DNA of 64,000 nt from Spirochaetes bacterium ADurb.BinA120 (GTDB lineage Bacteria > Spirochaetota > UBA4802 > UBA5368). The DNA lies in contig MVZN01000007.1 of assembly GCA_002069125.1 (NCBI GenBank), positions 1 through 64,000 on the forward strand, given 5' to 3'. The notes below the pieces were generated by a model, which ran no database searches, was not told the origin of the DNA, and was given only the letters and a program-made list of their open reading frames with translations. The position numbers and the translations under genes are program-made. Numbering within the stretch: position 1 is the first letter of the stretch; each line of letters starts with the position of its first letter. Of the stretch, positions 18,982 through 50,561 are shown piece by piece.

Positions 18982-18984
18982 TAC

Positions 18985-19075
18985 TAGACTTGTTGCATAA
19001 CAGGCCGGGAGAGCCCATTCCCCCCCGCCTGCGGCGGAGGAAATGTCGATCATTCCGAGTTTGGCAACAACTCTA
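18985..19075. repeat. MITE-like repeat, short copy (91 bp)
   Basis: TAGACTTGTTGC at 18985-18996 and GCAACAACTCTA at 19064-19075 are imperfect terminal inverted repeats (11 of 12 bases pair). The same two ends bound the element at 50171-50339. The interior is GC-rich with short inverted stretches and has no reading frame. This and the promoter at 18953-18981 are all that was recognised between 18866 and 19188. Confidence 0.65.
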
Positions 19076-19188
19076 ATATTTATAAACCTCCGCATGATTA
19101 TTATGAAATCTTTTAACACATTAGAGGCAATCTCTGAAAACGTAAATACTGATTTTTCCGGTAGTTTACTCTTATGGAGGTTCTACCC

Positions 19189-48839: not shown

Positions 48840-49865
48840 TCAATCGACCTGGCGTTCCCTGTCCCCGGACTTGCGGCCGGCCGCGTTTATCATTTCCGGT
48901 GATGCCAGATAATAATTCTTGACGACCTGCAGGGGGACCGCGTAATCCTGCCTGGCGTTCCACATCAGATAGCCCCTGACGCCGGCATCGTGCACAGCGC
49001 GTATCTGTTCTTCTATGTATTTATTGTATGTAAGACCAGATGGGCCGAGTTTCATTTTGAATGCCTGGATATAGGTCACTATTTCGGCGCTTTTAACGCG
49101 ATCCTTGCCCTTTTTAGATGTCAGGTACACAGTCTGGTATGGATCCGCCATGAGCTTTTGGCTCCATGTGTAATGTGACGGATATGCCATGGGGCAGATG
49201 ATATCCACCACTTTGTCCAGGCCCTCCATTCTCTGGCCTATGGAATCTTTGCTGTTCAACGGGATCCTGCCGAATACGTCAGCGGCAATTCTGGCGTTGT
49301 ATTTTTTAAGCTGCTCCTTCGCACGGGCCAGAAAGCCCTCTATGAAGTCATATTTCTGCTGAAGGGTCAGGTTTCGCAGTATTCCGTAGTCGTTGAAACG
49401 GATATAGTCGAACTGGATTTCTCGGAAACCGTACTGGCAGGCTTTTTCGGCCAGGTCCAGCCTGGCCTTGATCTCGGCTTCCGGGACTGGAAAGCGTTTC
49501 AATCCATCGGGGAAGACCACGATTCTGGCTATCGGATGAATACCGTTGCTCAGACATAATTCGACATTTTCCCGCGGGACCTGACATATGTCGTAGCGCG
49601 ACGTATGAATGTCCAGCACCATGGCATTTATTCGGGCTTCTTTCGACATGGCGACAAATCGGGAGAGTTTTTCCATATTCCGGGCCGAGTCGACTGTCAG
49701 ATAGATGCCTCTATAAAAATCCGGAAATTTATAGGCCGCTCCTATGTTCGCGGGGCCGGAAAATCCAATACTTTCCTTGTTTTGGCTCCAGATATTATCG
49801 ATACTTTCGAAACATAAAAAAATCGCGATCGATGCGGGTAACAGTAGATAGGCTAACTTTTTCAT
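48840..49865 (-). CDS. Putative glycoside hydrolase, DUF4015-type
   Basis: A 341-aa exported protein. The N-terminal hydrophobic stretch (about 4-20) is a signal peptide or anchor. The rest is a (beta/alpha)8-like domain: RGIYLTVDSARN near 52, INAMVLDIHTSRYDIC near 79, HPIARIVVFPD near 109, FREIQFDYIRF near 146, ARIAADVFGR near 186, and DIICPMAYPSHY near 211. These strand-end motifs match the DUF4015 group of predicted glycosidases. Candidate acidic residues are the Asp of FDYIRF and of AADVFG. Substrate unknown. CAGGAG precedes the ATG. It is convergent with the lipoprotein pair. Confidence 0.8.
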   Translation of the reverse strand: MKKLAYLLLPASIAIFLCFESIDNIWSQNKESIGFSGPANIGAAYKFPDFYRGIYLTVDSARNMEKLSRFVAMSKEARINAMVLDIHTSRYDICQVPRENVELCLSNGIHPIARIVVFPDGLKRFPVPEAEIKARLDLAEKACQYGFREIQFDYIRFNDYGILRNLTLQQKYDFIEGFLARAKEQLKKYNARIAADVFGRIPLNSKDSIGQRMEGLDKVVDIICPMAYPSHYTWSQKLMADPYQTVYLTSKKGKDRVKSAEIVTYIQAFKMKLGPSGLTYNKYIEEQIRAVHDAGVRGYLMWNARQDYAVPLQVVKNYYLASPEMINAAGRKSGDRERQVD

Positions 49866-50561
49866 GAGCGCTCCTGAATTAGTATTTACAAAGGGTAAAT
49901 TATCTCATACTTGGGAACTCTAAAGAAGAAACCGATCAATATGACATCCTCTATGACGGATATTTCAGGAAAACCGACTTCTATTTACTGATCGTCAGGC
50001 GGATGCCGGGTGCTCAATAAAAATTACCGTCGGCCCGGGCATGTGGCGGGACGCGTTGCCTGAACGATCCGCGTCGAATCACTTAAATGACGGGAATACT
50101 CATGGTCAATCATATTTTTTAGCAATTATAAGTCCGGTGGACTTGCTGGCGGGATGTTTTTTATATACATTAGACTTGTTGCTTTACTGAGTGTCATTAC
50201 GAGCCCCGGTCGTATCGGGGCGTGGCAATCTCATACAATATCCGGTTTTTTAAAAAGTAATTTGTTGACTTTTTAAGATCGCCACGCCGGCCTGCGGCCT
50301 TCCCGCGATGACATTTTTGTCGGATACGCAACAACTCTATTATTTTCAGTGCTTTCTAATCTTCGATACTGGATTTCCCGCCGGGGGATAATCAAGTATC
50401 GATCGATATCCCATAATTTAAGAAAACCGATGATATTTCCATCTGAATCCCGGCAGCCGGGCCTCTTCCAAATTGAGCACCGATGGGTGGAGACTGAGCG
50501 TTCCGATTTCAGTGGCAATTTAGCCTTAGATGTGCCTAAATTTATCATGTAGGAGGTGGAT
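49866..50561. other. Long intergenic region containing a MITE-like repeat
   Basis: A 696-nt gap without an acceptable reading frame. Its main content is the repeat at 50171-50339. To the left, AAGTCC/GGACTT at 50130-50144 forms a 6-bp hairpin followed after 15 nt by a T-run. To the right, AATTTAG/CTAAATT at 50517-50542 flanks the region just before yqeY. The strand to the left of the repeat looks degraded and shows no recognised homology. Confidence 0.4.
50171..50339. repeat. MITE-like repeat, long copy (169 bp)
   Basis: TAGACTTGTTGC (50171-50182) and GCAACAACTCTA (50328-50339) bound the element. Inside is a second inverted repeat: TGTCAT plus CGTGGCAATCT on the left pairs with AGATCGCCACG plus ATGACA on the right, with one mismatch in the longer block. 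The whole can fold into a cruciform or long hairpin. There is no transposase gene. The inner part resembles the common bacterial palindromic repeats of the GTCATTGCGAG...GGCAATCTC type. Confidence 0.7.

Follow-up and report, generated by a model that had tools for sequence, protein, structure and literature searches.

An intergenic region of a spirochaete MAG, a 3.5-Mb draft genome in 216 contigs, carries one inverted repeat nested inside another, and the question is which part of this structure moves, if any: the outer repeat with the palindrome as its content, or the palindrome alone. The site lies on contig 7, within a stretch of 64,000 nucleotides that was analysed as a whole and is referred to here as the window, between a minus-strand reading frame (48840-49865) and a plus-strand frame starting at 50556. 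The latter we take, from recognition by eye, to be a YqeY-like gene. A preliminary description made from the letters of the window had proposed a non-autonomous, MITE-like element.

The inverted terminal repeats named in that description are present, with TAGACTTGTTGC (50171-50182) and GCAACAACTCTA (50328-50339) complementary at 11 of 12 positions (92%). The borders given with them, 50171-50339, need correcting, as the outermost T and A are part of the duplicated target ATT (Table 1). The nested palindrome is also there, as two REP-like units in inverted orientation: GTCATTACGAG (50193-50203) and CGTGGCAATCTC (50221-50232) on the left, CGTGGCGATCTT (50275-50286) and GTCATCGCGGG (50302-50312) on the opposite strand, which together make up two GTCATTGCGAG-hairpin-GTGGCAATCTC units placed tail to tail. 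It had been assigned to a common palindromic type; the palindrome stands, but its window copy reads GTCATTACGAG, one base away from the common form. Taken alone, the two inner motifs are not enriched in the window over shuffled sequence, and therefore their arrangement and the copies elsewhere carry the weight. With up to two mismatches allowed, the window contains the end motif seven times where 2.2 would be expected, and 0 of 100 shuffles reach seven.

Table 1. Parts of the form-B element, with its target duplication, and the second element of the window
Feature	Position	Strand	Remarks
Mobile unit, form B, 167 bp	50172-50338	+	First ends with REP-like dimer inside
Left copy of 3-bp target duplication, ATT	50169-50171		Direct reading; ANT duplication over 74 distinct elements
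Right copy of target duplication, ATT	50339-50341		Direct reading
Left terminal inverted repeat	50172-50182	+	AGACTTGTTGC
Right terminal inverted repeat	50328-50338	-	GCAACAACTCT
First REP-like unit, head outward	50193-50232	+	GTCATTACGAG-CCCCGGTCGTATCGGGG-CGTGGCAATCTC
Spacer separating both REP-like units	50233-50274		
Second REP-like unit, inverted	50275-50312	-	GTCATCGCGGG-hairpin-CGTGGCGATCTT
Second window element, first ends, form A	18986-19074	+	~91 bp including outer T/A; GC-rich hairpin inside

The ends AGA[CG]TTGTTGC...GCAACAA[CG]TCT define a first family, which exists in two main forms. The genome of the window holds about 17 copies of the ~166-bp form B, with the REP-like dimer inside (14 near full-length, one split on C32 and two degenerate on C66 and C61), and 11 of the ~91-bp form A, which encloses a GC-rich hairpin (10 near full-length and one split). 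Across all loci examined, 81 entries have paired first ends, 74 being distinct elements and seven the inner halves of others. The same motif reversed without complementing gives a single entry against these 81, in loci enriched for matches, which makes it a control of the motif and not of its genome-wide rate. The interior of the 74 distinct elements is a REP-like unit in 27, a GC-rich hairpin in 36 and neither in 11; the shortest, at 48 bp, is nearly empty (L144).

Insertion of these elements is accompanied by a target duplication of fixed length. An exact 3-bp duplication flanks 44 of the 74 distinct elements, whereas 2000 shuffles give 17.6 on average and 28 at most; exact matches at 4 bp and at 5 bp are each found in 0 of 74. 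The duplicated triplets are ATT (21), AAT (18), AGT (2), ACT, TTT and CAT (one each), so that ANT makes up 42 of the 44. By origin, the duplication is exact in 18 of 24 elements of the window's own genome and in 26 of 50 from other genomes. The second window copy, flanked by ACT (18983-18985) and AAT (19075-19077), is among the 30 elements without an exact duplication. With its 167 bp, too few to encode a transposase, its inverted and conserved ends, dispersed multi-copy occurrence and fixed 3-bp duplication, the window element has the properties of a MITE. MITEs usually have an autonomous partner with the same ends, which is not required of them. The ANT target is presumably a feature of the ISL2 group of the IS5 family, and a 3-bp ANT duplication is what the exact cases display.

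Both forms extend beyond the host genome. Used as a query, the window copy matches 9 of 148 genomes: its own, four congeners, G010 and G023, which belong to another family of the same order, and G016 and G078, where the matches are short pieces. The best form-B identity to the window copy is 89% in G010 and 79% in G023, and the neighbouring YqeY-like protein is 61% and 60% identical, respectively; the nearest copy in the own genome, at 90%, is about equal to the one in G010. On this sequence comparison, form-B identity far above that of the neighbouring gene is consistent with movement between lineages. A form-A query matches 11 of 148 genomes including its own, several of them through the GC-rich hairpin alone. 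A search of 392 relatives finds the exact longer end pattern GASTTGTTGCRTAACTGH in 8, which include the own genome and all belong to this order, and its reverse in 0 of 392.

A wider search with an exact 19-base end pattern gives 30 stretches in genome_contigs, whose neighbouring frames were judged by eye. Twenty come from Spirochaetes MAGs. In 17 of these the ends pair at a distance of up to 260 bp; the partner end is weaker in L171 and L153 and absent in L179. The other 10 (four Pectobacterium, two Barnesiella, and Legionellaceae, Jidaibacter, Bacillus and Chroococcidiopsidaceae) have a partner end within 260 bp in no case and look like chance matches; six of the 10 were read further. The end pattern has one unpaired match in viral_contigs, and the window element has no match at E 1e-5 in phage and plasmid records. 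In the congener G003 gene order is kept and the same two genes flank the intergenic stretch. The whole stretch examined at this orthologous locus has no first ends, its right flank having diverged too far for a clean junction of an empty site to be read.

Several individual copies are of interest in their own right. A form-B element lies in matching flanks (CAAATCGCGCCGCACTATAY) in genomes from two different families, at L223 (G000 C74) and L315 (G023 C253), and is either an old shared insertion or part of a transferred locus. L136 (G002) has a TCATTCCGG...CGGGAATGAC palindrome, which we take to resemble dRS3-type repeats, between a pair of first ends of which one is degenerate. First ends also enclose a CCGCCGCCTTCGGCGGCGG-type hairpin in elements of about 100 bp (L139, L141, L165, L168 and L174), found in G033, G029 and Spirochaetes MAG records.

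Whether the dimer travels with the ends can be judged from their joint divergence. Distances between arms and between interiors correlate across 21 form-B rows (Mantel r 0.84, 0 of 5000 permutations as high), and do so at r 0.81 when the joining spacer is included. Within the own genome r is 0.956 (n=10, 0/5000), 0.92 after removal of the most degenerate row, L306 (n=9, 1/5000), and 0.958 after removal of L306 and L067 (n=8, 8/5000); the second-end (C) set alone, taken up below, gives 0.60 (8/5000). Rows entered these sets if they satisfied the boundary rules, which gave 21 for B and 8 for C, including 10 of the ~17 own form-B copies, and with arms of about 45 bases the arm-distance estimates are coarse. 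Because the distances of arms and interior correlate, separate entry of the dimer into each palindrome is disfavoured; this co-variation shows that the REP-like dimer spreads together with the ends as one unit.

The proposed non-autonomous element with a palindrome inside is therefore borne out by its dispersed copies, its 3-bp target duplication and the joint spread of ends and interior, and also by one congener's orthologous intergenic region, which is without such ends. Copies, ends, duplication and that end-free site are direct observations. The preliminary description had asked for further checks. It would have been given up if this pair of copies were the only one in the genome and had no link to any transposase ends, and there are many copies; a count in relatives finds form B in four congeners and also outside their family, in two genomes; and target-site duplications are present, as ATT on both sides of the window copy and in exact form in most of the distinct elements.

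The REP-like dimer also occurs in a second MITE family, with the ends GGGTGTGAATTAAA and 8-bp duplications. Seven further matches to the window element were read, and five of them (L071-L074 and L076) are dimers with GGGTGTGAATTAAAWTYCGGG-like ends and their inverse, L070 and L075 being degenerate form-B copies. A search of 11 genomes from the order finds second ends in 9 of them and, for the reversed pattern, a total of two matches. An exact 8-bp duplication flanks 9 of 20 second-end elements (0.44 expected by shuffling, shuffled maximum 3-4), and exact matches at 7 bp and at 9 bp are found in 2 of 20 each. A REP-like unit lies inside 15 of the 20 and is absent from five. Exact GTCATYGCGAG occurs 16 times in the own genome. 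Thirteen of these matches fall in 12 element loci (seven first-end, five second-end) and the remaining three in open frames of 432, 608 and 134 codons without the rest of the repeat; among exact matches in this genome, no free unit outside both backbones and long open frames was seen.

The interiors of the two families are more alike than their arms: B and C interiors differ by a mean distance of 0.287 (minimum 0.184), their arms by 0.568. In a tree of 30 interiors, from which 5 of 35 rows (L140, L146, L060, L062 and L232) were left out as enlarged, truncated or mis-bounded, 21 B and 9 C interiors lie on opposite sides of one weakly supported branch (87/40). As they separate in this way, one acquisition each, or one transfer, suffices. 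Two MITE backbones carry one REP-like cargo, an interior that the comparison shows them to have in common by a route that we infer. An enlarged hairpin with a GGCCGCTC...GGCACTCGGCC insert is seen in the first-end elements L009 (G000 C32:18222-18438) and L140 (G025) and in the second-end element L224 (G000 C90). Its occurrence in both end families suggests exchange of interior modules.

A transposase with the same ends, which the preliminary description had thought worth looking for, was not found in the families and collections searched, namely PF01609, PF13358, PF13586 and one end pattern, in draft genomes and in genome_contigs contigs of at least 3 kb. Movement in trans, which that description had deduced from the lack of a transposase in the window, is accordingly an inference. 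PF01609 has matches in 4 of 7 genomes and PF13358 in 2 of 11, none with first ends in the flanks examined, and PF13586 matches 0 of 11. The 19-base pattern in genome_contigs returned MITE copies, the unpaired end L179 and chance-like matches, and no transposase. Several candidate partners were rejected on inspection. An IS5-like gene in L130 is flanked by other inverted repeats, with GGGAACCTCTAAAAATT, and the IS630-type genes in L148 and L149 have no first ends. End-like motifs 300-2500 bp apart enclose genes in L024, belong to two separate MITEs in L090 and are a chance motif beside a MITE in L099; the wider end pairs of L173 (484 bp) and L174 (1251 bp) are read as chance ends.

A longer element with second ends is found in G005, a member of the window genome's family, where GGGTGTGAATTAA ends flank 612 bp (L263:1298-1909) with a 155-amino acid reading frame of no known family (L263:1413-1877). 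Pieces of it occur in L257-L266 and stop at contig ends, as expected of repeated sequence; the complete copy, in L263, has no target duplication. In G023 a relative of the protein, 33% identical (L130:2326-2817), lies beside the IS5-like gene. Its best Pfam match is at E 0.21, there is no NCBIfam match and no PDB match at E 1, and no relative was found in the plasmids or viral contigs searched. The AlphaFold model is poor (mean pLDDT 42.6) and has strand-helix-helix twice. At 155 residues the protein is short for a DDE transposase.

We favour, with a probability of roughly 0.8, a MITE moved by a DDE transposase, probably IS5-type (ISL2-like), and carrying a REP-like dimer as cargo. The inverted ends AGA[CG]TTGTTGC of this gene-less element, together with some bases inward of them, would be what the enzyme recognises in trans. 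Insertion would be into ANT, mostly AAT or ATT, with duplication of 3 bp. The CGTC-REP-like tail-to-tail dimer would have been captured before the families of the order diverged, or passed among them later, and from then on copied along with the ends. The second MITE family, with its other ends and 8-bp duplications, may have acquired the same dimer separately or received it by exchange. The hairpin could be of use in joining the ends through a cruciform, or in terminating transcription.

Other readings assign mobility differently. The dimer might itself be the mobile entity and the outer palindromes only its targets, entered independently; REP dimers within palindromes of Halothiobacillus and Anabaena are a precedent in the available text of PMC3733652, and such entry would fit both a dimer enclosed by the arms of two unlike outer repeats and the 36 GC-rich hairpins and 11 other interiors among the 74 first-end elements. 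We consider it improbable in view of the strong co-variation of arms and interior within one genome, of B and C interiors that lie apart rather than mixed on their weakly supported tree, and of the exact GTCATYGCGAG matches, 0 of 13 of which, outside long open frames, lie outside both backbones. Even less probable is an IS630/Tc1-like MITE of the form GACTTGTTGC...GCAACAAGTC with TA duplicated. TA does stand at both ends in 41 of 74 entries, but in 58 of 74 the bases adjoining it on the outside agree (29 T/T, 24 A/A, 3 G/G and 2 C/C). Duplication of ANT over 3 bp predicts such agreement and duplication of TA does not; the two IS630-type genes (L148 and L149) are without such ends. A occupies position -2 in 87% of flanks. 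These flank bases come from a 74-entry list that still holds a few double entries and differs from the cleaned set of 74 distinct elements.

That the hairpins are retained for a host function, to terminate transcription or stabilise mRNA, and that recombination, not transposition, has spread them is the reading we hold to be least probable. It would accommodate the strong folding of the window copy, whose 167 bases as single-stranded DNA reach -30.1 kcal/mol against a shuffle mean of -18.3 (z -3.9); the form-A copy of the window folds slightly better than its shuffles (z -1.6). It would also accommodate the 65 of 75 entries whose removal leaves no long open frame across the site. Precise ends and a target duplication speak against it, as do the absence of any Rfam match at E up to 1 and the mixed gene contexts (33 codirectional, 22 divergent and 11 convergent among 66 classed of the 75 entries, counts that include a few inner halves of elements).

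A more speculative and rather doubtful idea is that the dimer is a selfish module without a transposase of its own, moving between MITE backbones and using two unrelated transposases (3 bp and 8 bp). Transfer of the dimer could then occur by template switching, or by insertion at the hairpin tip. If true, this would explain the wide persistence of CGTC-type REPs without a dedicated enzyme. How they move is left undecided in the available part of PMC3733652, no transposase being tied to them, and mobilisation by a wide range of transposases is among the possibilities named there; the dimer would then ride as cargo on any inverted-repeat system that happens to be active. A dimer in two MITE families of one genome, with none free in the search made, renders that proposal testable. 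The two MITE families are themselves an addition for a group of uncultured Spirochaetes.

Compared with MITEs of the ISL2 group of the IS5 family, the window element is likewise gene-less, with short inverted ends, many copies and a 3-bp target duplication; it differs in having a REP-like dimer or a GC-rich hairpin as its interior and no autonomous partner in what was searched. The element is of a familiar type, and its interior, shared with a second family, is the unusual part. The 612-bp element of G005 can be compared to mobile insertion cassettes, in which a passenger gene lies between IS-like ends without a transposase. Its passenger, unlike theirs, is a protein of no known family, and its complete copy (L263) is without a target duplication.

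The interior is best compared with CGTC-tagged REPs (families 1-4; dRS3, RPE-4 and RPE-6), which have 8-9 bp stems, 4-5 base loops and a CCA tail (PMC3733652, available text). The units here read TGTC-ATTGC...GCAAT-tail, in which TGTC may correspond to the variant tag of that sequence given there. In common with those REPs they have AT at the stem foot, a short tail, a dimeric arrangement and no dedicated transposase known, such an enzyme being apparently absent for CGTC-tagged REPs according to the same part of that source. The window units and most listed rows read TGTC at the tag position, and several form-B rows read TACATTGCG. The units differ in their length of about 38-40 bp with an inner hairpin, and in a CTC rather than CCA-like tail. 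They resemble CGTC-tagged REPs, as far as sequence likeness goes, and are not filed as members, since the sizes of stem, loop and tail fail. The tail-to-tail order found here is called rare for CGTC-tagged REPs in the text available (PMC3733652), and the dimer lies inside a MITE in all 13 exact own-genome matches outside long open frames.

Closest in arrangement are the dimers of Halothiobacillus neapolitanus (CGTC-1, in a 41-bp palindrome) and Anabaena variabilis (GTAG-15, in a long palindrome), where a REP dimer likewise lies repeatedly inside a longer inverted repeat and where, in the portion of PMC3733652 at hand, target palindromes without REP are said not to have been found. The outer repeat here, by contrast, duplicates its target and also occurs with other interiors or nearly empty (48 bp), and two distinct outer repeats enclose the same dimer. 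A literature text search for GTCATTGCGAG, GACTTGTTGC and CTTGTTGCA gave no insertion-sequence paper among the matches listed, and an open-licence literature search for REP dimers in MITEs gave none beyond PMC3733652. The text available there already describes dimers of REPs enclosed by longer palindromes; to these, the present locus adds target duplications and one dimer common to two MITE families.
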